NCBI GenBank assembly: GCA_013042835.1
Contig: JABDPJ010000137.1
Span: 1-32,923, forward strand
Source: Lysobacterales bacterium
GTDB taxonomy: Bacteria; Pseudomonadota; Gammaproteobacteria; Xanthomonadales; SZUA-36
Length of the DNA stretch: 32,923 nucleotides
Reading direction: 5' to 3'
Shown: positions 1,218 through 29,942 of the stretch, piece by piece
How the letters are laid out: each line of letters begins with the position of its first letter
Position numbering within the stretch: the first letter of the stretch is position 1
The notes under the pieces: model-generated
What the model was told of the DNA's origin: nothing
Seen by the model: the letters and a program-made list of their open reading frames with translations, nothing else
The model's database searches: none
Position numbers and translations under genes: made by a program

Positions 1218-3704
1218 TCAATTGCCAATGGGTGAACCCGGAGGCGCGGACTGCACCTTGCCTGGCGGTACCCTGGACGGGTCATTTTTCAGTGTAGCAA
1301 TGTTCAGGCGTGCAAACCTGTAATGTGCGGCCCACTCAGCTTCCAGGCGGTCTGGCTTCTGCTTTGCCAGGAACGCATCCAGTTTCTGTATCGAATGGTA
1401 TGCCTGTGCACGTAGTTCGGGGGCAGCATCGGCGTCACTGGTGAGCTTCAGCAGGCGTTGCAGAAACTGGTTGCCCGCAAGGCGCTGAATGGCTCCGTTG
1501 ATACCGGACTGTCTTGCATCGAACCAGCATGATTGCGCCATTGCATCGAGCACTTCAGGGAATCCCGGCATTGACGCGTCGCTGGCATGAAAGGCGTTCA
1601 TGCGCGCAGCGCGATGCGGGTTGATCAAGACATCCAGAGTCAGGCTGATTGCACTGGCAGCGGGCGACAGAGGGTCAAATACGGTGCCGGTATCGCGGCT
1701 GAATGACTCGCGTCCCAGGCCATGTCCGGGCGGTCGCGGTGGGATGCTGTCCAGCAGAGACTGCGGCAGCGCAAGCAAATCAGGTTCCAGCGTGTTGACC
1801 AGCATATCAATGGCCGCCTCTTGCCTTGCGGCGTCGACCGTCACCGGTGTTGCCTGACCGTCAGCCCGCATACCGTAGGTGAAGTACTGTCCGCCGATAA
1901 GTTTGCCGACCGCTTGAATCTGGAACCTGTGTAACAGGTATATGGGCACCAGCGACTCTTCGATGCTGGCCAGCGGTCTGCCCGGCCGGATGTTGCGTTC
2001 GCCAAAGTTGGCCAGCGCCACAGAGCGTACCTTGAGCAGGTGCTCGAGTTCTGCCATTGCATCCTTGCCGTTGTCCCAGAGGTTACCGAACGGGTGGGCG
2101 CTGCCAGAGTCGCGGGAATGTTCATCAGCGACGTAGAGCAGACCAGAGGCAATGGTCTCTTCGATGATCCTCTTTCTTTCGGCGTCCTCGTCAAACGACT
2201 CCGGAAAGTCCTGGTAGGCATACAGAACTGTGCGCTTGTCCCATGCCCCGATACCCGTGCTATAGGCGTCGGAAAGGTCCAGGCCGCCTTCGCCGTCAAA
2301 ACGGATCAGCGGGAACGGGTAGTCCATCACCGACGAGCGGTCGTCGACGCTGGCGGCGAAATTGTGTTCCATGCCGAGCGTATGACCCACCTCGTGTGCG
2401 GACAGCTGGCGGATACGCGCCAGGGACATTTCCAGCATTGTGTCCGGCAACTGGCCGTCCGTGTACGGCGCCAGCAAGCCTTCTGCAATCAAGTAGTCCT
2501 GACGCACGCGCAGTGAGCCGAGGCTGACATGTCCCTTCAATATTTCACCGCTGCGCGGATCCACCACGGATGATCCATAGGACCAGCCCCGCGTGGAGCG
2601 GTGTACCCATTGGATCACGTTGTAGCGAACGTCCATGGGGTCGGCTCCCTCAGGCAACAGCCTGACCTGGAAAGCGTCGCGGTAACCGGCGGCCTCAAAG
2701 GCCTGGTTCCACCAGCTTGCACCCTCCAACAGCGCCGAGCGGATCGGCTCCGGCGCACCCGGGTCGAGGTAATAGACGATGGGCTCGACGGCTGCGGAGA
2801 TATCCGCCTGCGGATCCTGTTTTTCAAGTCGATGGCGTCGACCATAAAGTACCTGTACCGGTTCACCGACCGGTACGGCGTAGTCCGTAAAACCGTTGCC
2901 GCCTGGCGAGCCTATGATGCCGGCCCGGGGGTCAAAGGGCAGTGGTGTGTAGTTATCATCCGGCAGGCGGATGAACGAGTGGTGCAGGTGCACGGTAACT
3001 GAGGTCGCGTCCGGAACGACGGTCGACAAAATGTCGCTGACCACTTTACCGTCGTCATTGTATTTTCTCTCGCCGGAATAGCTGACGATGGCTTCCACCT
3101 CGGTGTTGTCAGGAAATGCCATGGTGCGCGGCAGGAAAATGGCTGAACGTGTCGGATCAGGCTGGTAACTTCCCTGTTGTGCGCGGTTGAGCCGCGTGGA
3201 AATGCCATGTGCATCACGCAGGAAAAAATCCGTGGCATCGACAAGCACCGAGCCGTTGGATTCAGCCACCCGTTCAAAGCCCCAGACCACTGAACGGGCG
3301 AATGAACTGTCGACCGCCATCAGTTCAGCGGCGTCATCGGAACTGGCCCGGTATCGGGTGTTATTTTCGATCAATAAAACTTTCGGTCCGGAACGGAAAA
3401 ACTCTACCAGGCGTGTGGCCCCCAGTTGCCCCCGGTCCAAACCAAGGTCATTGGAACCAACCCCGCGCGCCATGGAGGATTGGTAGATAATCTCCTGTCC
3501 CATGTTGTCGATCCGCAGCAGGAGGCGACCTTGTCTCTCGTCCCAGTAAAGATCCAGAAACCCCGGCATATGAACAAGGCCACTGGTTTTTTCCTTGATG
3601 CTGACAGCTTGTTCCCCGACGTCGCCGGTTTGTTTGGCAAACGCAAATTGAGAACCCATCAAGAGAACAAAACAGGCGGTGAGCAGGTTTCTGGCGAGGT
3701 GCAT
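1218..3704 (-). CDS. secreted zinc-dependent metalloprotease (HEVGHTLGMEHNF; DUF5117/DUF4953-type)
   Basis: 852-aa ORF 1218..3776; the internal Met at 3704 gives a signal peptide (MHLARNLLTACFVLLMGSQFAFA). Metzincin-like HExxHxxGxxHN motif in LSAHEVGHTLGMEHNFAASVDDRSSVMDY. Confidence 0.85.
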   Translation of the reverse strand: MHLARNLLTACFVLLMGSQFAFAKQTGDVGEQAVSIKEKTSGLVHMPGFLDLYWDERQGRLLLRIDNMGQEIIYQSSMARGVGSNDLGLDRGQLGATRLVEFFRSGPKVLLIENNTRYRASSDDAAELMAVDSSFARSVVWGFERVAESNGSVLVDATDFFLRDAHGISTRLNRAQQGSYQPDPTRSAIFLPRTMAFPDNTEVEAIVSYSGERKYNDDGKVVSDILSTVVPDATSVTVHLHHSFIRLPDDNYTPLPFDPRAGIIGSPGGNGFTDYAVPVGEPVQVLYGRRHRLEKQDPQADISAAVEPIVYYLDPGAPEPIRSALLEGASWWNQAFEAAGYRDAFQVRLLPEGADPMDVRYNVIQWVHRSTRGWSYGSSVVDPRSGEILKGHVSLGSLRVRQDYLIAEGLLAPYTDGQLPDTMLEMSLARIRQLSAHEVGHTLGMEHNFAASVDDRSSVMDYPFPLIRFDGEGGLDLSDAYSTGIGAWDKRTVLYAYQDFPESFDEDAERKRIIEETIASGLLYVADEHSRDSGSAHPFGNLWDNGKDAMAELEHLLKVRSVALANFGERNIRPGRPLASIEESLVPIYLLHRFQIQAVGKLIGGQYFTYGMRADGQATPVTVDAARQEAAIDMLVNTLEPDLLALPQSLLDSIPPRPPGHGLGRESFSRDTGTVFDPLSPAASAISLTLDVLINPHRAARMNAFHASDASMPGFPEVLDAMAQSCWFDARQSGINGAIQRLAGNQFLQRLLKLTSDADAAPELRAQAYHSIQKLDAFLAKQKPDRLEAEWAAHYRFARLNIATLKNDPSRVPPGKVQSAPPGSPIGN

Positions 3705-4031
3705 GGTTATCCAGCCGTATAGTCGTTTTACAAGGTGGCATATCTTAGCCGAAAGTTGGCTTGCAGGCTTGATCAATTGGCCAGAACAGGCAGTCAGATG
3801 GCATTTTCGTGGAACTAAACCCAGCGCTTCCCGGTCGCAACTTGTAAGGGGTGAATACAGGTTCGACCTGAAACTGAAAAGTGATAAAATTCAGTTTGTG
3901 GGATTGTTGCCTGCAGCCATTTACCCAGGGTGACCGCCATGATCGGATTAACGCCTTTCTCCAGCCTTTCGGATTTCTTTTTTGTTACAAAACCGCACCA
4001 TCCTGCCGGTTTGTTCAATCACCGCCTGCAC

Positions 4032-5705
4032 ATGTTTACACTCGCGGCCATCAGCTTGTTGATGATTTCCGTCCCGGTATTGGCCCAGGATCAGCTTGGC
4101 AATGACATCCTCGGTGAGGCGGCCTATGACGCGCTTGGCAGTTCGGTGTCGCTGTCGGCCGATGGCAAGCGCCTGGCAACCGGCGCGCCAGGTAGTGACT
4201 CCACGGGTTTTGATGCCGGCCAGGTTCTTCTCTACCAATGGTCAGGGACGGATTGGAACCGGATGGGCGGGGATATCGGGGGTGAAACGGCATATGACCA
4301 GTCAGGCAGTTCTCTGTCCCTGTCGATGGATGGTGAGCGGGTGGCCATCGGTGCACCGGGCAATGATGGCAATGGATTCGATTCCGGAAGCGTGCGCGTT
4401 TTCGAGTGGACGGGGACCGACTGGACTCAGCTTGGCGGCGATATCCGCGGCGAAGCAGCTAATGATGAATCAGGCGCATCGGTCGCGTTGTCCGCAGATG
4501 GCTTGCGACTGGCTGTTGGCGCCCCCAAAAATGACGGCAACGGCATTGACTCCGGTCACGTCCGCATCTACGAGTGGTCCGACGGCAGTTGGGAACAGTT
4601 AGGTGATGATATTGACGGTGAGACATTCGGGGATGAATCCGGCTGGTCGGTAGCACTGTCTTCAAATGGTAACCTGATCGCTATTGGTGCAATGAAAAAT
4701 GACGGTGGTGGAATTGAAGCGGGTCATGCGCGCGTCTACCAGTGGTCAGGTTCTGAATGGGAACAACTCGGCGGCGACATTGACGGCGAAGCTATCGCGG
4801 ATGAATCAGGCTCTTCGGTGTCGTTGTCATCACGGGGCGACTACCTTGCCGTCGGTGCACACAAGAATGACGGTAATGGAATTGACGCCGGCCATGTGCG
4901 TATCTACCAATGGTCGGGTAACGCCTGGAATCAGCTTGGTTCCGATATTGACGGTGAAGCGTTTGGTGACAATTCCGGCTGGTCGATCTCCCTGTCCGCG
5001 GATGCAAAAAACCTCGCCATCGGAGCGCCCAACTATAACGGCAACGGTATAGACTCGGGACACGCGCGATTGTATCAATGGTCGGATATGACCTGGACAA
5101 AGACCGGCGCCGACATCGATGGCGCTGCCTTTGGTGACAAGGCGGGTTGGTCCGTGGCGCTCTCCACCTACGCCAACAGGCTGGCCGTCGGATCGCCATT
5201 GAATATTAACGATAATGGCATCGAGGCGGGTGAGTTGCGTGTTTTCGATATCAGCACGTTCAACCCATTCAGTATGAATCCCGGTCTCAACGACGCCTGG
5301 TACAACCCGGTAACCAGTGGGCAGGGTTTCTTTATCAATGTATTTCCGGACCTCGGTGTGGTTTCGCTGGCATGGTTCACCTACGACACCGAACTCCCGC
5401 CCCCGGATGCGGTTGCCAACCTCGGTGACCCGGGCCACCGCTGGCTGACGGCCCTGGGTCCGTTATCCGGCAGGCAGGCCACCATGCAGATCGAGATGAC
5501 ATCGGAGGGGCTGTTCGATACGGCGACAGACATTATACGCACGGATCCACCTGGTTCTGACGGCACGATTGTGCTGACTTTCTATGGCTGTAACGCCGCT
5601 ACCGCTGAATACGATATACCGTCGATCAACCGCAAGGATACGGTTTACCTGCAGCGCGTCGCCAATGACAATATCGTGCTGTGCGAGGCTTTGAGCGCAG
5701 ACTGA
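4032..5705 (+). CDS. secreted seven-repeat beta-propeller-like protein with distinct C-terminal domain
   Basis: ORF 3930..5705; the Met at 4032 gives a signal peptide (MFTLAAISLLMISVPVLAQ). Seven consecutive 56-aa units of the form DIxGEaxxDxSGxSvsLSxdgxxlAiGAPxNDGNGidsGhvRvYqWsgxxWxqlGg, then a ~150-aa non-repeat C-terminus. Confidence 0.85.
   Translation: MFTLAAISLLMISVPVLAQDQLGNDILGEAAYDALGSSVSLSADGKRLATGAPGSDSTGFDAGQVLLYQWSGTDWNRMGGDIGGETAYDQSGSSLSLSMDGERVAIGAPGNDGNGFDSGSVRVFEWTGTDWTQLGGDIRGEAANDESGASVALSADGLRLAVGAPKNDGNGIDSGHVRIYEWSDGSWEQLGDDIDGETFGDESGWSVALSSNGNLIAIGAMKNDGGGIEAGHARVYQWSGSEWEQLGGDIDGEAIADESGSSVSLSSRGDYLAVGAHKNDGNGIDAGHVRIYQWSGNAWNQLGSDIDGEAFGDNSGWSISLSADAKNLAIGAPNYNGNGIDSGHARLYQWSDMTWTKTGADIDGAAFGDKAGWSVALSTYANRLAVGSPLNINDNGIEAGELRVFDISTFNPFSMNPGLNDAWYNPVTSGQGFFINVFPDLGVVSLAWFTYDTELPPPDAVANLGDPGHRWLTALGPLSGRQATMQIEMTSEGLFDTATDIIRTDPPGSDGTIVLTFYGCNAATAEYDIPSINRKDTVYLQRVANDNIVLCEALSAD
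4104..5252 (+). repeat. seven in-frame protein-coding tandem repeats, 168 nt period (last unit shortened)
   Basis: Units begin at 4104, 4272, 4440, 4608, 4776, 4944 and 5112, each starting GAY-AT(C/T) (Asp-Ile), six of them 56 codons long. Confidence 0.9.
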
Positions 5706-5738: not shown

Positions 5739-6497
5739 TCACAAAACTGTCAACGGGAACGTTTCGTTGGTGGCCATTGGAATTGTTTTGCAGGCGCTCA
5801 AGTCGATATCGACACCTGCCGCGTTAAGCGCCAGCGCTACCTTGTAACGCCGGTTTACGGCCACCCGCCAGAATTTCCAGCTGCCGGCATCGTCGTCCAA
5901 ATCCGCGTGCACCTGGAAGCCATCGAGCCTGTCGTCTCTGAACAAAAAGGTGAACTTGTCCAGCGGTATGGCAAGGCCGAGGCCGCGCGCCTTGATATAG
6001 GATTCCTTCAGCGTCCAATAATCGAAAAACCGTTGCTTTTGCCTGGCTGCCGGCAAGTTGCGAATTTCATCGATCTCCTGCGGGGAAAAATAGCTGGCAA
6101 GACTGTCCATATCCGTACGCGTGGACCTCTCCGTGTCCTCCGTGTCCACACCGATGTCGTAACCCCGCACGATGGCGCAGACGATCAATCCCCGCGTGTG
6201 GGAGATGTTGAACCTGACCGGGACTTCCACCTCCGGATGTTCAATATCCGGCTTGCCATAAGCGCTGGCAGTGAATTTCCAGGTGACCGGATCAACGGGG
6301 AAAAATGTCGACAGGCTGCTGCGAATCAATGCGCGGGTCACCAGGTACTGATGACGATGGCCTGCATAATAAAAACGGGCCATTTGCGCTGACTCGGCTT
6401 CGCTCAACAGGGATTCGTAACGCCGCAGCAATTTCCGGTCTGATATTTGTTCGGGAAAGGAAAAAAAGAGATGAACCCGGTGGCTGGTCAGTTCCAT
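5739..6497 (-). CDS. Sfp-type 4'-phosphopantetheinyl transferase
   Basis: 252 aa; FNISHTRGLIVCAIVRGYDIGVDTED and FFDYWTLKESYIKARGLGLAIPLDKFTF are hallmark PPTase motifs. Confidence 0.9.
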   Translation of the reverse strand: MELTSHRVHLFFSFPEQISDRKLLRRYESLLSEAESAQMARFYYAGHRHQYLVTRALIRSSLSTFFPVDPVTWKFTASAYGKPDIEHPEVEVPVRFNISHTRGLIVCAIVRGYDIGVDTEDTERSTRTDMDSLASYFSPQEIDEIRNLPAARQKQRFFDYWTLKESYIKARGLGLAIPLDKFTFLFRDDRLDGFQVHADLDDDAGSWKFWRVAVNRRYKVALALNAAGVDIDLSACKTIPMATNETFPLTVL

Positions 6498-6573
6498 TTC
6501 AGCACCTGAAGGGCTTCAATGCCTGAGGCAAGGCTCTGCCTACACCGCATCCTGTATGTGCCGGACGCAAAAA

Positions 6574-7491
6574 TCAGCCCCAGCGGCGATGCATCCAAAG
6601 CCATTGCTCAGGATATTCCCGCACCCAGTCTTCGATCACGCTGGTGATGAGTTCCGTGGCGCCCCGAATGTCGATGTCGCCATCTTCATCGCGGGGCAAA
6701 ACGAGTTCGTCGGTGATTTCAAGACGGTAACGGCCGTTGGGCAAGCGAATGCTGCGGGCGCCGTGAACAGGGCAGTTGTAACGCCGCGCCAGCTTGGCCA
6801 GCAGGGTATTGGTGGGTGCATCGTGGCCAAAGAATGGCACCTTGATGCCGCGGCGAAACTTCTGATCGACGAGCAATCCCACGTGCTCATTGTTTTCAAG
6901 AGCCCTCACCAACTGGAACGAAGCCCCGGGACCCGATGCGATCAGGTTGGTTTCAAGTTGCTGACGCGCCTTGGCAACGTGCTTCGCAGCATATTTGTTG
7001 TTGGGCTTTCTGAATAACGATTTGACCTCGAGGCCATACTTGGCAGCGACCATGGGCAGTAATTCAAAATTGGCGATATGACCGGTGAAAAGCAATGCAG
7101 GCAAGCCATCATCGCGCAGTTTTAAGAATTGCCCGGCGTTCACGATTTCAAAACGATCGGAGGTTTCGAGGTCTCCCGCCAGGTCGAAAATTTCATCGGC
7201 GTAGACATACTCAGTCAACGATCTGGCCATTTGCGCCCAGTTTTCGCTGGCGAGTTGCTGGCGCTCCTCGAGGCTCTTCTCGGGAAAGGCAAGCGCCAGG
7301 TTGTCCATGACGATCCTGTGACGCCAGATTTTAGGCCCCAACCAGCGAGCAAAACGCTCGAACAGCCTGGCCGCACGCTCCATCGGAATAAGCCGCAGCA
7401 TTTTCAGGGACAGGAAAACAAACTGGGCGGAAAACCAGTCGCGAACCGCCAGGATGAATTGCAGGAACCGGTAACGCAGCGGCAATTTCAT
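6574..7491 (-). CDS. lpxXL: LpxL/HtrB-family lipid A acyltransferase, LpxXL-like
   Basis: 305 aa; HIANFE (HX4E) motif in LLFTGHIANFELLPMVAAKYG, and GLLVDQKFRRGIKVPFFGHDAPTNTLLAKLA. The symbol is based on operon context. Confidence 0.8.
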   Translation of the reverse strand: MKLPLRYRFLQFILAVRDWFSAQFVFLSLKMLRLIPMERAARLFERFARWLGPKIWRHRIVMDNLALAFPEKSLEERQQLASENWAQMARSLTEYVYADEIFDLAGDLETSDRFEIVNAGQFLKLRDDGLPALLFTGHIANFELLPMVAAKYGLEVKSLFRKPNNKYAAKHVAKARQQLETNLIASGPGASFQLVRALENNEHVGLLVDQKFRRGIKVPFFGHDAPTNTLLAKLARRYNCPVHGARSIRLPNGRYRLEITDELVLPRDEDGDIDIRGATELITSVIEDWVREYPEQWLWMHRRWG

Positions 7492-7537
7492 TCAGGTGAC
7501 CCCGGATTTGCGGGTGCCTGCCAGAGTACAATCATGG

Positions 7538-8563
7538 TCAAAGCGTAACGATAATTTTGCCGAATACCTGGCGGTTTTCGAGCCTTTCGAGCCCTTCACC
7601 GATCTTTTCCATGGGAATTTCCAGGTCGATCACCGGCTTGACGGTTCCATTGGCGAGTTTTTCAAGTGCGTTGTGGATGTTGCGCATGGTGCAGCCGAAA
7701 CTACCGATCAGGCGCAACTGCCGTTGAAACAGCTGGAACAGGTTGATTTCAGCTTTGATACCCGTGGTTGAACCACAGGTGACCAGCCGTCCGCCGATTT
7801 TCAGTGAAAACATGCTGCCCTCAAAGGTATCGACGCCAACGTGTTCAAAGACCACGTCCACACCCTGCTTTTTGGTCAGTTTACGCAGGCGGCCTTCGAA
7901 ACGGTCGGTGTTGTAGTTGATGGCGTGATCGGCGCCGAGGTCCAGCGCCTGTTGGGCCTTTTCATCATTGCCCACCGTGGTATAGACCGTGCAATCGATG
8001 GCTTTGGCAAGTTGGATAGCGGCAGTGCCGATACCGCTGCCACCGGCCTGGACGAGGATACTCTCGCCGTGCTGGAGTTTCGCGTTATCGAACAGCATGT
8101 GTTCAACCGTGCCGAAGGTTATCGGTGTGAGTGCTGCGGCAACCGGGTCGAGGTCCTGCGGCGCTGTTACGAAAAGGCGGGCTGGAAAATTCATCATTTC
8201 CTGGGCGAAACCGTCGATATGAAATCCGAAGACGCCGTTGACGTTTTCACACAGGTTGTCACGGCCCTCAATACAGGGCTTGCAGGTGCCGCAGGTGTTG
8301 GCCCCATAAAGCGCGCCGACCTGGCCGACATGCAAATCTTTGACGTTTTTGCCGACCGCAACGATTTCGCCGGATGCTTCCGCGCCGACGGTTATGGGCA
8401 GTTCGCGCTTGGCAAAAGCCATGCCGCGCCAGCCCCATACATCGATATGATTGAGCGCGACCGCGCAAATCCGGACCTGTATTTCATCATCACCCGGAGG
8501 GGGAGGGGCGTCCACCTCGGTAATCCTCAGGTCACGTTCTCCGAAATTTCGTAATGCTCGCAT
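7538..8563 (-). CDS. zinc-containing alcohol dehydrogenase (MDR superfamily), Adh2XL-like
   Basis: 341 aa; structural zinc lobe CGTCKPCIEGRDNLC, cofactor-binding VQAGGSGIGTAAIQLAKA. Confidence 0.88.
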   Translation of the reverse strand: MRALRNFGERDLRITEVDAPPPPGDDEIQVRICAVALNHIDVWGWRGMAFAKRELPITVGAEASGEIVAVGKNVKDLHVGQVGALYGANTCGTCKPCIEGRDNLCENVNGVFGFHIDGFAQEMMNFPARLFVTAPQDLDPVAAALTPITFGTVEHMLFDNAKLQHGESILVQAGGSGIGTAAIQLAKAIDCTVYTTVGNDEKAQQALDLGADHAINYNTDRFEGRLRKLTKKQGVDVVFEHVGVDTFEGSMFSLKIGGRLVTCGSTTGIKAEINLFQLFQRQLRLIGSFGCTMRNIHNALEKLANGTVKPVIDLEIPMEKIGEGLERLENRQVFGKIIVTL

Positions 8564-8595
8564 GGTCAGTTCACCGCCAGGTCTAAGAAGGGTTG

Positions 8596-9369
8596 TCAGC
8601 GCTGTATCAGCAATCCGGCCGTCAGTCCGCCGTCGATCGGAATGATGCTGCCGGTGATGTAGCCCGCCAGGGGTGAAAACAGGAAGCGCGTCACGGCGCC
8701 GACTTCTTCCGGCCGGGCAAAACGCCTCAGCGGAATCTGTTTCTCAAGTTTTTCCCGGTAGGATGCGTAAGGCGCCAGCAGGTCGGTATCGACGTAACCC
8801 GGCGCAATATAGTTGGCGGTTACGCCTTTACGCGCCATTTCCACCGCCAGCGTTCTGATATAACTCAGCATGGCGCCCTTGCTGGCGGAATAAATTGCGT
8901 TGCCGGAAACCGCGAGTTGGGATGTCACCGAACCGATCGCAACGATACGGCCGCCCCTGGCGCGCATCAATGGCCGCGCGGCAGCACCGGCCAGCCGTGT
9001 CATTGCCCAGAAATTGAGTTGGAAAAGCGCTTCGGCTTTGTCCTGGTCAGCAAGCACCGCCAAGGTGTCGTAAGATCCGCCGGCATTGTAGACGAGGCCG
9101 TACAGCGACTCTGACTCACCGATCAGCCGGGCAAATTCATCCACCTGTTCGCGCTCTGACAGATCAACCTGGTGGCTGGTGATGGATTGTGACGGGTAAC
9201 CGGCCTGCAGGTCTGCGCACAGTTGCGCCGCTTCATCGGCCGAACCGCGGTACGAAAACGTCACGTCGTAACCTTCCTCGGCGAGCGCGGTGACGATGCC
9301 CTTGCCAATACCCTTGGCTCCGCCTGCAACGAAAACTGTTTTCCCACTGGCCTGGTTGTTCACGTGCAA
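8596..9369 (-). CDS. SDR-family 3-oxoacyl-ACP reductase (FabG-like)
   Basis: 257 aa; GGAKGIGKGI nucleotide-binding motif, YSASKGAMLSYIRTLAVEMARKGVTANYIAPGYVDTDL. Confidence 0.9.
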   Translation of the reverse strand: MHVNNQASGKTVFVAGGAKGIGKGIVTALAEEGYDVTFSYRGSADEAAQLCADLQAGYPSQSITSHQVDLSEREQVDEFARLIGESESLYGLVYNAGGSYDTLAVLADQDKAEALFQLNFWAMTRLAGAAARPLMRARGGRIVAIGSVTSQLAVSGNAIYSASKGAMLSYIRTLAVEMARKGVTANYIAPGYVDTDLLAPYASYREKLEKQIPLRRFARPEEVGAVTRFLFSPLAGYITGSIIPIDGGLTAGLLIQR

Positions 9370-9374
9370 GGCTC

Positions 9375-10658
9375 CTAGGCGGGTTCAGCCGAAAATATCA
9401 GGCAGACGTTCTGGCCGCCAAAACCAAATGAATTGGACATGACCGTATTGACGCTTTGCACGCGGCTTTCATTCGGCACCACATCCATCGGGATATTCGG
9501 GTCCTGCTCGTTACAATTGATGGTGGGCGGCATAACGCCTGCCTGGATGGTCAATAACGAGATTGCGGCTTCGATAGCGCCGGCTGCGCTCAGGGTATGC
9601 CCGATCATGGACTTATTGGAACTGATGGGCGTGTTGGCCAACTCGTCGCCGAGTGCCGCGGACAGCGCCAGGTATTCCATCTTGTCGTTTTCCGGCGTAC
9701 TCGTGCCGTGGGCATTGATATAGTCGATATCCCCGGGTGTCATACCTGCATCGGCCATCGCGCGGGTAATGCAATCGATAATGGCGGAGCCGTCAGGCTT
9801 GGAGCGCGTGCGGTGAAATGTGTCGGCGCGCTCACCGGCGCTGCGCACGACCCCCAGTATTTTTGCACCTCTTGCCCTGGCTGCCTCGTAAGACTCCAGT
9901 ACCAGCGTGGCTGATCCTTCGGCCATAACGAAGCCATCACGGCCTTTCGAAAATGGTTTTGAGGCCCCTTGCGGGTCGTCATTTTGTGTTGAGAGTGCCG
10001 ACAGGAGGTTAAAGCGAACCACCATTTCCTCACAAATCTCGCCATCCGTGCCGATGCAAAGCGCGGCATCGGTTTCTCCACGGCGAATGGCTTCGGCGCC
10101 GAGTTGTACGGAGGTTGCGCCCGACGCGCAAGCGGTTGTCAGTGAAATTGGTTGACCTCGCGTACCGAACTCATCAGCGAGCGTATCCGCGATGCTGGCG
10201 AACTGGAAAAGCCGGAAATAGCGCAAATAATCGCCCGCTGCCGCGTTTTTAACCAGGCGCTCGTAACCCCTGAGGCCCTTGCCGGCTTCATCGCCGTATA
10301 CGGTCATGCGTTGATCCCAGTTGGTCTCAGCCGGGGAATTTGCGACGAACAGGGGCCCGGGAAATGAACCCCGGGAGCCGATTGACGCCTGTTCAATGGC
10401 CTCGGTGGCAGACTGTTGCGCGAGATTGATCGAGTGCCGGGGCGCACAGTAGCGCTCATCGCTGTTCCAATCGACGATGCCGGCAATCTGTGTGCGCAGC
10501 CCTTCGGTCGGGAAACGGGTGATTCTGCGTATACCGGATACGCCGGCCAACAGGTTACGCCAGTTATCCTCTTTACCCTGTCCCAGTGAGGTCACGATGC
10601 CGATACCGGTTACCACGACGATCGGGCGGCCCCGGTGATCTCTTACAGCTTGGCTCAT
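9375..10658 (-). CDS. beta-ketoacyl-ACP synthase II (FabF family), FabF1XL-like
   Basis: ORF 9375..10715, likely Met at 10658 (MSQAVRDHRGRPIVVVTGIGIVTSLGQG). Intact Cys-His-His: TTACASGATS, NAHGTSTPEN, NKSMIGHTLSAAGAIEA. Confidence 0.9.
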   Translation of the reverse strand: MSQAVRDHRGRPIVVVTGIGIVTSLGQGKEDNWRNLLAGVSGIRRITRFPTEGLRTQIAGIVDWNSDERYCAPRHSINLAQQSATEAIEQASIGSRGSFPGPLFVANSPAETNWDQRMTVYGDEAGKGLRGYERLVKNAAAGDYLRYFRLFQFASIADTLADEFGTRGQPISLTTACASGATSVQLGAEAIRRGETDAALCIGTDGEICEEMVVRFNLLSALSTQNDDPQGASKPFSKGRDGFVMAEGSATLVLESYEAARARGAKILGVVRSAGERADTFHRTRSKPDGSAIIDCITRAMADAGMTPGDIDYINAHGTSTPENDKMEYLALSAALGDELANTPISSNKSMIGHTLSAAGAIEAAISLLTIQAGVMPPTINCNEQDPNIPMDVVPNESRVQSVNTVMSNSFGFGGQNVCLIFSAEPA

Positions 10659-10659
10659 A

Positions 10660-11898
10660 TCATTCACCTCCACGCAATGGCACATCGGGCTTGCCGATAA
10701 GGGCCAGGCACTCACCGCGCCAGTGCCCCCATGTGCTCAGCAACACGTGCTCAGGAATATCGGTAAATTCTTTTTCAAAGCCGGACTCGTCAAACGGGTC
10801 AAGGAACTTACCCCGGGAGATGGCCAAAGAAGCGAGCGCAAAGCTGACCGGGAGTTGAGCTTCAAGGGTGTTACCGAAGATCGTTGTAACGCCGCGGACA
10901 GCCGCATCGATGCCATGCTCGTTGAGGCTTTTGAGAAATTCGTATTCTTCGCTTAATTGTGGCTGCACGCCGCAACAGCCCGACAACACGGGCAAGGGTC
11001 CCACGGGGATTTCATTGCTCAGCTGTCCGAACAGCTTATCTGCATTTTTTCTGGCGGCGCCGGGTTGCCTGGTACACCTGTCTGAGACTATCCCATCGAC
11101 TTTGGCATAGGGTTTCACGCCCCGGGATTCGGCATGCTGGCGCGATTCAAGGATCAGGAACGCACCGGCGCTGCCCATGATCATACCCCCATCAGTGCTT
11201 TCGCGATTCCAGACCGATTCATGTTCGCCCTGCCACAGCGTATGGCCAAACTCCATCAGCATGGTCATGTCGGCGCGCTCGGCGATATAGGCGCCCCCGA
11301 CCAGGAAAAGATCGCCCTGACCATGACGTATCTGGGCTACGGCTGTTTCCAGTGCCGTGACACCGGCCGACTCCTCACCCATGAAAGTACGGGACGAATC
11401 GGTCACGCCGTGCACGATGGATATATTTCCGGCCATCAGGTTGGAAAGCTGTGCCAGGAACAGCGTGGGGCGCAATTCACTGTTGAGCGCTTCGTTGAGT
11501 ATTGGCCCGAAATCTTCCACACCTGCGATTTTCTCCATGATGTCTGCATCGACTTCCAGGTCGCGCTCCCCACCACCGGCAGCGACAATCATATTGGTCG
11601 CAGCCAGCAGGTCCGGGTTGTGTGAGATACCGGCATCGTCGAGTGCCAATCCCGCCGCATATGTGCCCAGGTGCTGCCATTTGCCCATCTGCCGCTGGTC
11701 GCTACGCTTGGGAATTTGCGCCGCAATGTCAAAATCGATGATGGGATGGACCGGGTAGGGGGCCTGGTCTTCGGTGTCGACCGATGCTGCAGGCGTATTG
11801 CCGGTGGCCAGTTGCGACCAGTGATCGTCAAGGCCTTCACCCAGGGAACTGACCAGTCCGATCCCCGTGATCCAGACTTCTGATTGCTTAGTATTCAT
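10660..11898 (-). CDS. degenerate beta-ketoacyl-ACP synthase (chain-length-factor-like), FabF2XL-like
   Basis: ORF 10660..11919, likely Met at 11898 (MNTKQSEVWITGIGLVSSLGEGLDDHW). Thiolase/KS fold signatures, but the positions matching the catalytic Cys and His residues are substituted by hand alignment to the neighbouring KS. Confidence 0.85.
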   Translation of the reverse strand: MNTKQSEVWITGIGLVSSLGEGLDDHWSQLATGNTPAASVDTEDQAPYPVHPIIDFDIAAQIPKRSDQRQMGKWQHLGTYAAGLALDDAGISHNPDLLAATNMIVAAGGGERDLEVDADIMEKIAGVEDFGPILNEALNSELRPTLFLAQLSNLMAGNISIVHGVTDSSRTFMGEESAGVTALETAVAQIRHGQGDLFLVGGAYIAERADMTMLMEFGHTLWQGEHESVWNRESTDGGMIMGSAGAFLILESRQHAESRGVKPYAKVDGIVSDRCTRQPGAARKNADKLFGQLSNEIPVGPLPVLSGCCGVQPQLSEEYEFLKSLNEHGIDAAVRGVTTIFGNTLEAQLPVSFALASLAISRGKFLDPFDESGFEKEFTDIPEHVLLSTWGHWRGECLALIGKPDVPLRGGE

Positions 11899-11902
11899 TC
11901 TG

Positions 11903-12364
11903 TCACCCAGCCGAGGCACGGCTTATCTCGCCATACCGGTCGAGCATGTTGTTTTTCAAAGTATCATTTGGAAACGGCATGATCCGGAACATCAATTTGC
12001 TGTCACAGATTTTCTTTCCATCGCGGAAGATACGGGCTTTAGTCGCTGCAAAACCGGAACCGTCATGTTCCAGTTCCGCTTCCACCCGCAAGACTTCGTC
12101 GGGCTCGACAAAGGTACGCATTTTTGCGCTGGTAACGTTAGCCAGAAACGGCATTTTTTCAAAACTGAGCCGGGCTAAAAGCATGAATCCAGAGGCCTGC
12201 GCCATCGTTTCTATCAACAGTACCCCCGGCACCAGCGGTGAGCCGGGGAAGTGCCCCTCGAATACCGTGCTTTCTCTCGGAACATCCGCCCGCGCCACGA
12301 TGCTGCCCTTAGCGGTATCAAGTGACTCGACAGCGTCGATCATCTGGAAATATTCTAGCAGCAT
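11903..12364 (-). CDS. 3-hydroxyacyl-ACP dehydratase (FabZ family), FabZXL-like
   Basis: 153 aa; VFEGHFPGSPLVPGVLLIETMAQASGFMLLARL hot-dog dehydratase signature. Confidence 0.9.
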   Translation of the reverse strand: MLLEYFQMIDAVESLDTAKGSIVARADVPRESTVFEGHFPGSPLVPGVLLIETMAQASGFMLLARLSFEKMPFLANVTSAKMRTFVEPDEVLRVEAELEHDGSGFAATKARIFRDGKKICDSKLMFRIMPFPNDTLKNNMLDRYGEISRASAG

Positions 12365-12377
12365 GAGAAACCGGGTT

Positions 12378-12659
12378 TCAGGCGTCTTTGGCAGCTATGA
12401 GTTCGTCGATCCGGTCACAAAGCTTGCCGAGGATAAAATAATCATCGACGTCCGCCTTGTTCTCGTTCAGTTCCTCAGTCCACTGTTCCAGCGGAATCTT
12501 GATGCCGAAATGTTTGTCAATGGCGAAAGCAATATCGAGGAAGTCGAGGCTGTCTATGCCGAGATCCGTAAAGGCGTTCTTTTCCGGCGTGATTTCCTCA
12601 AGGGGGATGTCGCTGGTGTCAGAGATGATCTCCGCAACAGCTTCAAAAGTCGTGGACAT
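12378..12659 (-). CDS. acpXL: acyl carrier protein AcpXL (specialised for very-long-chain fatty acids)
   Basis: 93 aa with the phosphopantetheine serine in [56 protein letters not shown]. From memory this closely resembles rhizobial AcpXL over its length, including the IKIPLExWTxE(L/V)N segment absent from housekeeping AcpP. Confidence 0.85.
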
Positions 12660-23539: not shown

Positions 23540-23842
23540 GGGTTCTCCAGTTAATGATGATTTGCGTGCGCCAGGGAACCTCATTGACCGATTTTATCGG
23601 TACCGTTTCACGGCAACAACAGCGGGTTTCCTGGGGGTGTTTATCACCGCATCACAACGCGTGAGGGTAACATGATGGCAAGCTGTTTTCCTTTAGTTTC
23701 AAGTTGCCGGCTGTGCCCGATGACCGTCCTCCGGTCGAGGCTCACCCGGGAATAAATTATCAACACTGCTATCGCATGTTGCAGTTGCCGGTCGTAAAAT
23801 TGAACCCGGTGAATGTGGGCCGGATTTTGAATCCGGTAATGA

Positions 23843-24181
23843 GCGGCATGTAACCCGGCTCTTGACCCCAAAGCGGTGGAGGGCATGCTCGCCGAGATGG
23901 CCAGGCGCGATATCGTTACCCACCTTGGTCACAAGATGAAGGCTTTCGAGGCCAACAAGGTGATAACCGAGGGTGGTGAATTCGAAGCAGACCTGATCAT
24001 GTTCATGCCCGGGATGACGGGCAACCTGTGGTTCGATAATTCGGATTTGCCGCGTTCGGCCGGCGGGCTCATCAAAGCCAATGACCGCTGCCAGGTAGAG
24101 GCGATGGACAAGGTTTATGTCGCCGGAGATTCCGGTAGCTATCCCGGGCCGGAGTGGATGTATTTGCGAAAATACCGTTGA
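23843..24181 (+). pseudogene. remnant of an FAD/NAD(P)-dependent oxidoreductase (sulfide:quinone oxidoreductase / flavocytochrome c-like), truncated at both ends
   Basis: In-frame translation after the stop at 23840-23842: CNPALDPKAVEGMLAEMARRDIVTHLGHKMKAFEANKVITEGGEFEADLIMFMPGMTGNLWFDNSDLPRSAGGLIKANDRCQVEAMDKVYVAGDSGSYPGPEWMYLRKYR*. Keeps the C-terminal FAD-binding VYVAGDSG motif but has no N-terminal Rossmann domain, no start context, and stops right after GPEWM. Confidence 0.65.
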
Positions 24182-24241
24182 GGGGGCATACGGGGGTCAG
24201 GAATATCTGAGGTATGCCGACCGGCCCAGGCATTGCGGACT

Positions 24242-25316: not shown

Positions 25317-26807
25317 CTAGATGGTCCTGTCAATCTGACCTGTTGTTCGCTTTTCAAGCCGGTCAACTAGTTGTCCGCCTGCATCTACCAGGTTCAACTC
25401 CATCGGCATTTTGCCGATCGCGTGGGTGGCGCAAGACAGGCATGGGTCGTAAGCCCTGATGGCGACCTCGACCTGGTTGAGCAGTGCTTCACTCAGCCGC
25501 TTGCCGTCGAGGTACTGGTTGGCCACTTTGCGGATCGATTCATTCATGGCCTGGTTGTTGTTGGTGGTCGAAACGATCAGGCTGGCTTTGCTGACGATGC
25601 CGTCGCCATCAATCTCATAGTGATGGAAGAGGGTGCCTCTCGGCGCTTCGATGACGCCGGTGCCGACAGATTGCAACTCGCCCTTGGTGCGCAGGTCTTT
25701 GCCCATCAAGTCGGGGTCTTCCAACAGCTCGGCGATAGCTTCTGCACAGTGCAGAGTCTCAATTAATCTCGCCCAGTGATACGCCATGGTGGACTGCACC
25801 GGCAGGCCGTCGCCCAGGCTCTTGAATTCCTGCCTCTGCGCTTCGGCCAATGGCGTGGAGAAGAAATCACAGTTATTGACGCGGGCCAGCGGGCCAACCC
25901 GGTACCAGCCCTCTTCTTCGCCGCGTGCCTTGATGAACGGGAACTTCATGTAGCTCCAGTCCTTGACGCTCTCACGCAGGTATTCGGTGTAGTTGGTGTA
26001 ATCGATGTGATCGAAAATCTCTTTACCCAAACTATCCCGGGCGCGCAGGCCACCATGGTAGAGTTCAAACGAACCATCATCGTTGACCATGCTCATCATG
26101 CTGGTATCGATGCGTGCAAAATCCATGTGGTAGTCGAGCTCTTCGTAAAAGACTTTCTTGACCAACTCAACCGCGGTTTGCGCCCAGCTAAGGTTCTGGG
26201 CGATGTCCTTGCGCAGGTAATCGACTTCTTCCCTGCTCAGTCCTTTGTTGATGCCTCCGGGTATTGCGCCGGTCCCATGCACCCGTTTGCCGGATGTCAC
26301 GCGGATGATTTCCTGGCCGTACTTACGCATCATCACGCCCTGCGTGGCGATCTCGGGGCTGTCTTCGATGACCCCAACGATATTGCGGTGGCGGACTTCA
26401 TCATCAAAACCGAATAACAGGTCCGGAGAGCACAGGTGGAAGAAATGCAGCGCATGCGACTGTAGTGTCTGGCCGTAGTGCATCAGGCGCCGGATCTTTT
26501 CGGCGGTCGGTGTCAGTTCGGTCGCACCGACGATCATATCCGTTGCTTTGGCGGCGGCCAGGTGATGACTGACGGGGCAGATGCCACACAACCTCTGGAC
26601 CAGCACAGGCAGTTCCCAGTAAGGCCTTCCCTGGATAAATTTTTCAAACCCGCGGAACTCCGTGATATGCAGACGGGCCTGCCTGATATTGCGGTTCTTG
26701 CCCTGTAACAGGGTGACCTTGCCATGCCCTTCGACCCGTGTTAATGGTTCAATAACGATGCGTTTCAGGCTCTCGGGGTTTTCGGCTGTTTCCAGTGCAG
26801 ATGTCAT
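25317..26807 (-). CDS. hoxH: NAD-reducing bidirectional [NiFe] hydrogenase, large (catalytic) subunit
   Basis: 496 aa; IEPLTRVEGHGKVTL, proximal CxxC in RLCGICPVSHHLAAAKATD, distal DPCLSCATH followed by a C-terminal extension for processing. Confidence 0.95.
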   Translation of the reverse strand: MTSALETAENPESLKRIVIEPLTRVEGHGKVTLLQGKNRNIRQARLHITEFRGFEKFIQGRPYWELPVLVQRLCGICPVSHHLAAAKATDMIVGATELTPTAEKIRRLMHYGQTLQSHALHFFHLCSPDLLFGFDDEVRHRNIVGVIEDSPEIATQGVMMRKYGQEIIRVTSGKRVHGTGAIPGGINKGLSREEVDYLRKDIAQNLSWAQTAVELVKKVFYEELDYHMDFARIDTSMMSMVNDDGSFELYHGGLRARDSLGKEIFDHIDYTNYTEYLRESVKDWSYMKFPFIKARGEEEGWYRVGPLARVNNCDFFSTPLAEAQRQEFKSLGDGLPVQSTMAYHWARLIETLHCAEAIAELLEDPDLMGKDLRTKGELQSVGTGVIEAPRGTLFHHYEIDGDGIVSKASLIVSTTNNNQAMNESIRKVANQYLDGKRLSEALLNQVEVAIRAYDPCLSCATHAIGKMPMELNLVDAGGQLVDRLEKRTTGQIDRTI

Positions 26808-26835
26808 TTTCTTTCTCGCTGCCAGTCCTCGCAGA

Positions 26836-27417
26836 CTAGTCGTAATGAATAAGGGAATAAGGAAAGTCGATGGTGTTACCGTTGATGAGGTCGGTCAGGA
26901 ATTTCCAGAAGGTGTCGGCCGAAGGCGGACAGCCGGGCAGGAAATAATCCACCCGTACCACTTCGTGTATGGGGTGGACCTTATCGAGCAACAGCGGAAT
27001 CTCAACGTCATTTGGAACGTGCGGGTTCTCAATGCCTATGCCGAGGATATATGCCTCTTCAAGGCACTCCTTGATATCGAACTGATTGCGCATCGCCGGC
27101 ACGCCACCGTTCACCGCGCAGGCCCCGACGGCCACCAGGATATCGCAGTTGTTGCGGAATTCGCGCAGATCCTCAACGTTATGTACATTGGCTACACCAC
27201 CCTCTATCAGGCCAATATCGCACTTTCCAATGTCCTTGATATCGGTGATCGGTGAGCGGTCAAACTCTACCAATTCCACCAGTTGCAAGATGCGTTCGTC
27301 GATATCCAGCAGGGACATGTGACAACCAAAACAACCGCATAAAGGCGCCGTGGCCACGATCAGTTTTTCTTTGCTGCCGTATTCGTTTACCAGTGGTTTA
27401 TTCATGGCTTTTATCAC
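26836..27417 (-). CDS. hoxY: NAD-reducing hydrogenase, small subunit
   Basis: 193 aa; APLCGCFGCHMSLLDIDE, VAVGACAVNGGVPAMRN, FLPGCPPSADTFWKFLTDLI cluster-binding motifs. Confidence 0.94.
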   Translation of the reverse strand: MIKAMNKPLVNEYGSKEKLIVATAPLCGCFGCHMSLLDIDERILQLVELVEFDRSPITDIKDIGKCDIGLIEGGVANVHNVEDLREFRNNCDILVAVGACAVNGGVPAMRNQFDIKECLEEAYILGIGIENPHVPNDVEIPLLLDKVHPIHEVVRVDYFLPGCPPSADTFWKFLTDLINGNTIDFPYSLIHYD

Positions 27418-28150
27418 TTATAAATGGTTTTTCCGGTTTGGAATGCGCGGCCACATCACCGACAACGCTGATGGGCTTGGTGTCGTAGAGACGCTGGCCG
27501 ACCGGGGTTTCATAACCGAGGTGCTTGGGCATGATGGCGCCGACCGGACATACCTCTACCGCTTTGTCAGTAAACTCCAACTCGCTTCCGCCGAGTTTGC
27601 CGTCGGGTGAATTGAATACCAGTTTGCTGTCGATGCCGCGGCCGGATATGGCAAAGACCGACTTGCGGTCGACCTGTTCGCTGGCACGCACACACAAGCC
27701 GCACAGGATGCAGCGGTTGTGGTAGAAAACGATATCCGGGTGTGACGCATCGATGGAGCGCTTGGGGAAAAAGTGCGTCAAATGCGGACTCAGCATGCCA
27801 ATGTAATAAGCTACGGCCTGCAGTTGGCAGGCACCGCTCTTCTCGCAGGCAGGGCAGGTATGGTTGCCTTCAACGAACAACATTTGCAGCAGCAATTCAC
27901 GCCTTTGCCTGATTGCATCAGAGCTGTTGTCCACTTCCATGCCGGCTTCGGCCGGGAGTGTGCAGGAAGCCTGGTGACGCCCATTGACATCCACGACGCA
28001 CAGGCGACAGCTGCCGTGCGGTTTGAACTCCGGGTTATGGCACAGGTGCGGAATATATTCACCGGCCCTGAGCGCCGCGTCCATGATGGTGTCACCCTTC
28101 TTGAAAGGGATATCCTTGCCGTCCAGTCTGAAGGTATTTTCAGTATTCAT
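27398..28150 (-). CDS. hoxU: NAD-reducing hydrogenase, Fe-S subunit
   Basis: ORF 27398..28183, Met at 28150 (MNTENTFRLDGKDIPFKKGDTIMDAALRAG); [2Fe-2S] CHNPEFKPHGSCRLC, HTCPACEKSGACQLQ, CILCGLC...CPVGAI. Confidence 0.94.
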   Translation of the reverse strand: MNTENTFRLDGKDIPFKKGDTIMDAALRAGEYIPHLCHNPEFKPHGSCRLCVVDVNGRHQASCTLPAEAGMEVDNSSDAIRQRRELLLQMLFVEGNHTCPACEKSGACQLQAVAYYIGMLSPHLTHFFPKRSIDASHPDIVFYHNRCILCGLCVRASEQVDRKSVFAISGRGIDSKLVFNSPDGKLGGSELEFTDKAVEVCPVGAIMPKHLGYETPVGQRLYDTKPISVVGDVAAHSKPEKPFISDKSHE

Positions 28151-29942
28151 CTGTTCGCTCCACGTAAGCGCCTTCATCTTCACGCCCGGTCAAAAGCCTG
28201 GAAACATCCAGCGCCTTGGTCATATCGAAAGCGGGTGTGTGACTCGTGTTGTGCAGGCGTGTTGCATAGATACCCGGGAACTTCGCCAGCGTATCGAGTA
28301 TCGGGTTGGGTGCGGTTGAACCGAGGCCACAATGCGCAGTCTTCTTCATGACCTGGCCGATACGTTCCATTTCCTTTAGGTCGTAGCGGGTGGCATAGCC
28401 AACCATGACTTTCTCAACCAGGTCGTTCAGCAGCCTTCCGCCAACACGGCATGGGGTGCAGAACCCACAACTTTCATGGGTGAAAAACCGGGCGAAGTTC
28501 AGCACCATTTTCAGCAGATCGCGCTGCTGGTTGAAAATCATGAACGAACCGCCGGAGGAGACGTCCTCAAATGCGATCTTGCGGTAGAACTCCTGCGGTG
28601 GGATCGTGCTTCCGGCAGCACCGGAAACCTGGACGGCCTGCGTGTCGCTGGCACCACAATCGACGAGAATCTGCCTGATTGTAACGCCAAACGGATATTC
28701 GTAGATGCCCGGCCGCTCGCAATCGCCGGAGATGCTCAAGAGCTTGGTGCCACTGGATTGCGAGGTGCCGACGGAGTGATACCAGTCCGCGCCGAAGACG
28801 GCAATCTTTGCCGCCGCAACGAACGTTTCGACGTTGTTGAGCGCCGTGGGCTTGTTCTTATAACCACAGGTGACCGGGAAGGGCGGACGGTCGCGCGGTA
28901 TGCCGCGCTTGCCTTCCAGCGATTCAATCAAGGCTGATTCCTCACCGCATATGTAGGCGCCCGCACCCATGTGAATCTCGATATCGAAATTAAAGCCCTT
29001 GTGGCCGAGAATCTTTTTACCGAGGAGCTTGGCTTCGCGGCGTTCCTGCAGGGTTTTCTCCAGCGCCTCACGCATGTACAGGTATTCTCGCCGGAGATAC
29101 AGCAGGCCCTTTTTCGCACCGACGATGCCGGCGGCAACGGTCATGCCCTCAAACAATTCGTCGGCATAGCTGTTGAGCAGCACCCGGTCCTTGAAGGTGC
29201 CCGGTTCGCCTTCGTCCGCATTGCAGACAACGTAGTGCTTGTCTGCTTCCGTCTCGCGGCATAGGCGCCATTTCAGGCCCGAGCCGAAACCGGCGCCGCC
29301 ACGGCCGCGCAGGCCGGAATTCTCGAGTCTCTCCAGCATGACTTCGCCGCCGGTCGCGGCCAGCGCACCGATGGCGCTGCCCTTGATGATGTCATCGTTC
29401 AACAGCTTGTCTTTGCGCCGGATGTTGTCTTTCACGACAAACAGGGATTTGGGCCAATTTGCTACCGGGATACCTGCCTCGATACGGCCAACCATCTTGT
29501 GAATGCGTTTTTCGGTCAGTTTTGATACCACCAGCCCATTGACCAGCATGGCCGGTCCCTGGTCGCAGATGCCGGTGCAGGAAGTCAGGCTGACGGTGAC
29601 TTTTCCGTCCGCTCTCGGAACATCGGGTTCGACGCCCAGTTTTTTGCACAGGCTTTTGAACAGCAACTGGTTGCCGAGCATGCGGTCGGTGATGTTATCG
29701 CTGAAGCGAATGTCATATTCGCCACGGGCCGTTCTGTGCAGGAAAGAATAGAAGTCGATAACGGCGTTGATTTTCATTGGCGGCGTCTTCAACCGCTCGG
29801 ACAACAGCTGAATGGCTTCCTCGGGGACATGCGAATACTCGTGTTGGATCGCGTGAAGGTACTGCAGCAGAAGATCTGGAGCTTCACCGATTTCAGAAAA
29901 AATATCGCCTATGAATTCTTCAATATTTGGCATGGTGCGCAT
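28140..29942 (-). CDS. hoxF: NAD-reducing hydrogenase, diaphorase subunit (NuoE-NuoF fusion)
   Basis: 600 aa; NuoE-like N-terminus with SCTGICDQGP, then NuoF-like GRGGAGFGSGLKWRLC, NADEGEPGTFKDR, GAGAYICGEESALIESLEGKRGIPR, ESCGFCTPCRVG. Confidence 0.95.
   Translation of the reverse strand: MRTMPNIEEFIGDIFSEIGEAPDLLLQYLHAIQHEYSHVPEEAIQLLSERLKTPPMKINAVIDFYSFLHRTARGEYDIRFSDNITDRMLGNQLLFKSLCKKLGVEPDVPRADGKVTVSLTSCTGICDQGPAMLVNGLVVSKLTEKRIHKMVGRIEAGIPVANWPKSLFVVKDNIRRKDKLLNDDIIKGSAIGALAATGGEVMLERLENSGLRGRGGAGFGSGLKWRLCRETEADKHYVVCNADEGEPGTFKDRVLLNSYADELFEGMTVAAGIVGAKKGLLYLRREYLYMREALEKTLQERREAKLLGKKILGHKGFNFDIEIHMGAGAYICGEESALIESLEGKRGIPRDRPPFPVTCGYKNKPTALNNVETFVAAAKIAVFGADWYHSVGTSQSSGTKLLSISGDCERPGIYEYPFGVTIRQILVDCGASDTQAVQVSGAAGSTIPPQEFYRKIAFEDVSSGGSFMIFNQQRDLLKMVLNFARFFTHESCGFCTPCRVGGRLLNDLVEKVMVGYATRYDLKEMERIGQVMKKTAHCGLGSTAPNPILDTLAKFPGIYATRLHNTSHTPAFDMTKALDVSRLLTGREDEGAYVERTDEY

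Follow-up and report, generated by a model that had tools for sequence, protein, structure and literature searches.

The DNA analysed here is a stretch of 32,923 nucleotides (the window), which is contig C166 (JABDPJ010000137.1) of the Lysobacterales bacterium assembly GCA_013042835.1, a metagenome-assembled genome (MAG) of 3.43 Mb in 329 contigs that is 89% complete. Positions 5739-12659 hold eight intact open reading frames (ORFs), all on the minus strand and with intergenic gaps of 1 to 76 bp, forming one tight unit. We consider it very probable that this unit represents the rhizobial acpXL-lpxXL cluster in complete orthologous form, comprising a dedicated synthase of very-long-chain fatty acids (VLCFA) and the acyltransferase LpxXL for lipid A. 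The genes, from the first to be read to the last, are:

12378..12659, minus strand: acpXL, a specialised acyl carrier protein (ACP) of 93 aa (NF005079, PDB 2kw2, tree)
11903..12364, minus strand: fabZXL, a hotdog 3-hydroxyacyl-ACP dehydratase (PF07977; identity to alphaproteobacterial proteins)
10660..11898, minus strand: fabF2XL, a ketosynthase-fold subunit without the catalytic Cys (NF005084; better start ATG at 11898)
9375..10658, minus strand: fabF1XL, an active ketosynthase (NF005076, residues; better start ATG at 10658)
8596..9369, minus strand: a FabG-type ketoreductase of the short-chain dehydrogenase/reductase (SDR) family (PF13561)
7538..8563, minus strand: a medium-chain dehydrogenase/reductase (MDR; adh2XL), probable enoyl reductase (PF00107, PF08240)
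6574..7491, minus strand: lpxXL, a lipid A secondary acyltransferase (NF005120, tree, HX4E motif)
5739..6497, minus strand: an Sfp-type 4'-phosphopantetheinyl transferase (PPTase) (PF01648, PDB Sfp)

The window ORFs were searched with Pfam and NCBIfam profiles, and curated equivalog cut-offs were applied. The calls were, in order, a PP-binding ACP, a FabA-like hotdog protein, a ketoacyl synthase with the N-domain only, a complete ketoacyl synthase, an SDR, a zinc-type MDR, a lipid A acyltransferase and an ACPS protein, in agreement with the order (ACP, FabZ, degenerate ketosynthase, ketosynthase, SDR, MDR, LpxL-type acyltransferase, PPTase) that an earlier note had read from this DNA. Four of the proteins exceeded equivalog cut-offs: the ACP for NF005079 (140.1 bits, cut-off 83), the two ketosynthases for NF005084 (515 bits, cut-off 320) and NF005076 (676 bits, cut-off 629), and the acyltransferase for NF005120 (390 bits, cut-off 273). 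We take these models to stand for AcpXL, FabF2XL, FabF1XL and LpxXL, respectively, because they belong to alphaproteobacterial clusters with the published gene order and the ACP matches 2kw2. Judged from the sequence, four equivalog matches in the published gene order are not a product of chance.

The nearest solved structure of the window ACP was the specialised ACP of Rhodopseudomonas palustris (PDB 2kw2, E 8.8e-36), and in the ACP tree it clustered with alphaproteobacterial AcpXL, apart from AcpP and AcpR. Profile, structure match and tree thus agree with the AcpXL type that the earlier note had proposed, whereas a grouping with AcpP would have counted against it. FabZXL is encoded next to acpXL after a gap of 13 bp and is 48-62% identical to the FabZ proteins of alphaproteobacterial acpXL clusters; it scored under the cut-offs of ordinary FabZ. 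The acyltransferase carries the HX4E motif HIANFE at residue 138 and was placed in its tree with alphaproteobacterial LpxXL, apart from the host's own LpxL-type protein and from LpxL and LpxM of Escherichia coli. Both the NF005120 score and the tree therefore identify it as LpxXL, as had been suspected, and not as an ordinary LpxL or LpxM.

The two ketosynthase genes stand in tandem, fabF2XL (KS2) before fabF1XL (KS1). One of them had been called degenerate, and the alignments put this more sharply than was claimed: in FabF2XL the catalytic Cys is replaced by Glu in 83 of 83 aligned gamma- and alphaproteobacterial orthologues, and the first His by Gly or Ala in 82 of the 83, with a gap in the remaining one. 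In FabF1XL, the Cys, both His and the Lys are kept in all 63 sequences from the two classes. The AlphaFold model of FabF2XL (pLDDT 88) has a KAS II/ketosynthase fold, and Foldseek searches with it returned both ketosynthases and chain length factors, which does not separate the two. A mutant of Agrobacterium fabrum in fabF2XL lacks any VLCFA (PMC11901934), which suggests that the protein is needed though unable to condense normally. It is most likely a non-condensing partner of FabF1XL resembling a chain length factor; this is the simplest reading.

The SDR is 70-86% identical among the gammaproteobacterial loci and 52-56% identical to the SDR at the same position in Methylobacteriaceae and others. 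It had been regarded as an extra to the rhizobial order, but Methylobacteriaceae-type clusters hold an SDR at the same place, and the gene is no novelty of this host. The MDR, 56-66% identical to that of alphaproteobacterial clusters, is a probable enoyl reductase, which fits the loss of VLCFA in an A. fabrum adh2XL mutant (PMC11901934); the gene is missing from some cluster members, such as Bradyrhizobium ORS278 (PMC5613085). The PPTase, which matches Sfp in the PDB (E 3.5e-19), is in contrast a true addition, as had been suggested. It accompanies the cluster in three genomes (those of the window and of loci L236 and L120, with 56-57% identity in the latter two) and was found in none of the alphaproteobacterial loci compared. 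It probably loads AcpXL with phosphopantetheine.

Compared with acpXL-fabZXL-fabF2XL-fabF1XL-adh2XL-lpxXL of Rhizobium, Sinorhizobium and Agrobacterium, the window's orthologues follow one another in identical order and orientation; the differences are the SDR between KS1 and MDR and the PPTase after LpxXL. The profile matches, the gene order and the AcpXL and LpxXL trees all bear out the rhizobial type of cluster that the earlier note had recognized. The Methylobacteriaceae-type clusters (L080, L083, L084) share the order ACP-FabZ-KS2-KS1-SDR-MDR-LpxXL, SDR included, but their SDR and MDR genes stand about 500-650 bp apart, a PPTase is absent, and their LpxXL is just 43-48% identical. The ACP aligns end to end with that of R. 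palustris (PDB 2kw2, 2ll8), whose class differs from that of our host. Legionella, in the same class as the host, is reported to have the same kind of product on its lipid A (PMC5613085, PMC11901934).

The relatives in the host's family are named Lysobacterales, Xanthomonadales or 'Chromatiaceae', which places the host in a gammaproteobacterial order, as its DNA had been thought to indicate. Between 12.8 and 32.8 kb the DNA is mostly 70-76% identical to that of same-genus genomes, with the order of hemerythrin, Cys/Met enzyme, pyruvate kinase, M14 peptidase and then hydrogenase genes kept. Because the genes of this right flank are collinear with same-genus genomes, at about 72-75% DNA identity, the contig is native to the host. 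On one side the cluster adjoins this conserved block, on the other a variable flank: in the same-genus relatives synteny ends at hemerythrin, and the genes beyond it differ among them and have nothing in common with the window's left flank. Among 369 genomes of the class, only the window's genome had LpxXL or AcpXL above the cut-offs. KS2 exceeded its cut-off in 7 of 349 genomes of the order, six of them within the window's family, and in none of nine sampled same-genus genomes; on a short contig of one same-genus genome, G369, the KS1-SDR-MDR-LpxXL-PPTase end of the cluster was found. Six other MAG loci of the Lysobacterales/Xanthomonadales group carry the cluster (KS2 70-74% identical). In the phylum sample, KS2 was found in 35 of 398 genomes, and the named alphaproteobacterial carriers were Bartonella, Brucella, Phyllobacterium, Methylobacterium, Xanthobacteraceae, Crenalkalicoccus and others. 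A locus titled Bacillus subtilis SK6B4 (L134) has a fabF2XL like that of Pseudochrobactrum and represents a mislabelled or contaminated assembly. The claim that such a cluster is unusual outside Alphaproteobacteria stands as far as rarity within the class is concerned, but not for the lipid itself, since VLCFA on lipid A has already been reported in the gammaproteobacterium Legionella (PMC5613085).

In a tree that had LpxL-type proteins as outside rows, the gammaproteobacterial LpxXL proteins formed a clade (100/99) that was sister to a Rhizobiaceae-type clade (99/95), and a Methylobacteriaceae/Xanthobacteraceae-type clade fell outside. In the KS1 tree with a FabF outgroup, whose stem branch is long and whose root is not firm, the gammaproteobacterial KS1 proteins again made one clade (100/100) within the alphaproteobacterial range, with Crenalkalicoccus and genome G429 further out. 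A concatenated tree (quick search, midpoint root) was compatible with this picture. Because the gammaproteobacterial copies form one clade inside alphaproteobacterial diversity, transfer from Alphaproteobacteria is likely, and an identity of about 39-66% to the alphaproteobacterial orthologues for most cluster proteins disfavours a recent event. These trees suggest that the cluster was probably transferred long ago to the ancestor of this gammaproteobacterial family and was then lost or spread, giving its present patchy distribution.

We propose that AcpXL would be primed with phosphopantetheine by the Sfp-type PPTase, and that an acyl primer bound to it would be extended in repeated rounds of condensation by FabF1XL, keto reduction by the SDR, dehydration by FabZXL and enoyl reduction by the MDR, with FabF2XL as the putative chain-length-factor-like partner of FabF1XL. 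LpxXL would then transfer the finished chain, expected to be C26-C30, from AcpXL to a 3-hydroxyacyl group of lipid A, working beside the ordinary LpxL-type enzyme of the genome. We infer the chain length, acceptor lipid, hydroxylation and PPTase target from the orthologues; the cluster in the window includes no hydroxylase gene. In a Bradyrhizobium lpxXL mutant, C26:25OH is gone from lipid A (PMC5613085). The host genome has genes for Kdo (KdsC) and for export of lipopolysaccharide (LptC, LptA and LptB), all four of which passed one cut-off or more, and one further LpxL-type acyltransferase besides LpxXL. The gene evidence supports the earlier reading that the host would put a very long acyl chain on an envelope lipid.

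Several observations weigh against this overall reading, or at least against a simple form of it. Relatives show no clean empty site next to the hemerythrin gene, and most carriers of the cluster also have ceramide-pathway genes, which means that lipid A may not be the sole acceptor. Furthermore, genome G852 keeps all three kinds of acyltransferase (types A and B and LpxXL), and LpxXL is no strict replacement of the second LpxL-type enzyme. We had considered such a replacement and rejected it as a rule; in the window's genome, G369, G383 and G857, LpxXL is accompanied by the common type A alone. Separately, a very divergent LpxL-family acyltransferase, set apart by a stem of 2.9 changes per site, occurs in three same-genus genomes (L108 54-1139, adjoining an M14 peptidase gene; L109 6150-7028; L223). 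In the window, the interval from the M14 gene to the RF-1 gene (23585-24241) showed no copy or remnant of it.

It is possible, though rather unlikely, that the VLCFA serve mainly the N-acylation of ceramide (a sphingolipid), or ceramide and lipid A both. The host has homologues of Spt, CerR and AasR with an AcpR-like ORF beside them (L290 1-3554 and L107 10407-11609, on its contigs C239 and C256), and a gene like yghO, whose product is named as a ceramide N-acyltransferase homologue in PMC9386255, downstream of kdsC-lptCAB. Its Spt, split over these two contigs, is 55-57% identical to that of E. coli BL21. By its sequence the host likely holds a full sphingolipid gene set, and it probably makes ceramides too. 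Spt (51-58%) was present in the window's genome, the nine sampled same-genus genomes, G379, G383, G857, G949 and G382, and was not found in G852, G378, G380, G387 and G389; the YghO-like gene showed the same split in the genomes tested for both. Two gammaproteobacterial loci, from sister genomes, carry a GNAT-type protein inside or after the cluster, that of L120/L076 being 51% identical to YghO of E. coli BL21. In L116 the start codon of the N-acyltransferase overlaps the stop codon of the MDR (ATGA), and LpxXL follows the ceramide-type insert. In L120 the PPTase comes directly after the MDR with the N-acyltransferase about 30 bp behind it, and no LpxXL is reached before the end of the contig. 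In both, the YghO-like gene is accompanied by a fatty acid desaturase and a PF04116 fatty acid hydroxylase (L116 14358-17232, L120 5114-9159), and a homologous hydroxylase adjoins AasR-CerR-Spt in L288 (G375). Thus, homologues of the bacterial ceramide pathway (Spt, AcpR, AasR, CerR, bCerS/YghO) are present in the host, and a YghO-like gene enters the cluster in L116 and L120. However, the window's ACP is AcpXL and not AcpR, its cluster holds no ceramide gene and is no sphingolipid AcpR-Spt locus, and the ceramide genes of its genome lie on other contigs. LpxXL is retained in every gammaproteobacterial locus with an assembled downstream region. In G852 no Spt accompanies the cluster and its LpxXL, so that lipid A would be the least that the pathway serves, with ceramide as a possible further target. 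We suggest only tentatively that one pool of AcpXL-bound very-long-chain acyl groups feeds both lipid A (through LpxXL) and ceramide (through a YghO-type synthase), with the PPTase separating this pool from ordinary fatty acid synthesis.

Aryl-polyene-type clusters share an ACP, two ketosynthases, a dehydratase, an SDR and an LpxL-family protein. It is very improbable that the window holds such a cluster, or another type II polyketide cluster with an LpxL-family acyltransferase in it by coincidence. Somewhat similar sets do occur in other families of the class: L254, L255 and L256 each combine an ACP and two ketosynthases with an LpxL-family acyltransferase, two of them also have a FabZ-like protein and an SDR, and the sets are perhaps of the aryl-polyene type. 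However, their ACPs reached only 51-53 bits with the AcpXL model (cut-off 83), and the window's KS1 clusters with the XL proteins and not with these sets, just as its ACP and acyltransferase fall with AcpXL and LpxXL. No ammonia lyase, coumarate ligase or aryl-CoA/ACP ligase was found among the window ORFs scanned. An alphaproteobacterial contig wrongly binned or assembled into a gammaproteobacterial MAG is also highly unlikely. The fragmentation and incompleteness of the MAG would allow it, and G785, a nearly complete genome of the same order, has an alphaproteobacterial-looking copy by a hemN-like gene that may be such an artefact; but, apart from the collinear right flank, the six other gammaproteobacterial loci make one clade with the window apart from all alphaproteobacterial copies, and the same-genus genome G369 also holds part of the cluster. 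The G785 copy (L250 6993-13940, on a 4.3 Mb contig) is a Rhizobiaceae-type acpXL cluster in which the MDR and lpxXL frames are broken. We set it aside as proof against a binning error for its disrupted frames, its Rhizobiaceae-type grouping and its hemN-like neighbour as in A. fabrum; contamination, an assembly with many errors or a separate transfer in recent times may account for it.

In its left flank the window encodes a Met-zincin (DUF4953/DUF5117) protein at 1218-3776 and an FG-GAP repeat protein at 3930-5705, which were not seen beside the hemerythrin gene of the relatives examined. At 25317-29942 there is a [NiFe] hydrogenase operon with a VhuA-like large subunit, a VhuG-like small subunit, a HoxU-like protein and a NuoE-NuoF fusion. 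The two hydrogenase subunits are 81-83% conserved in G376 (L109), and the enzyme is probably NAD-linked.

VLCFA on gammaproteobacterial lipid A is not new, because Legionella is already listed in earlier papers (PMC5613085, PMC11901934). The new elements are the conserved addition of a PPTase and the testable lead that VLCFA may be shared between lipid A and ceramide. So far, very-long-chain lipid A has been considered mainly as helping rhizobia, Brucella and Legionella to live inside cells, and the complete orthologous cluster in uncultured Lysobacterales-type bacteria would extend it to environmental bacteria. The operon-borne PPTase could be a ready tool for reconstruction of the pathway in a laboratory host. 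Since the carriers also have ceramide-pathway genes, it can be asked whether lipid A and sphingolipids draw on the same long chains; if this is true, these bacteria would have very-long-chain ceramides beside membrane-spanning lipid A.

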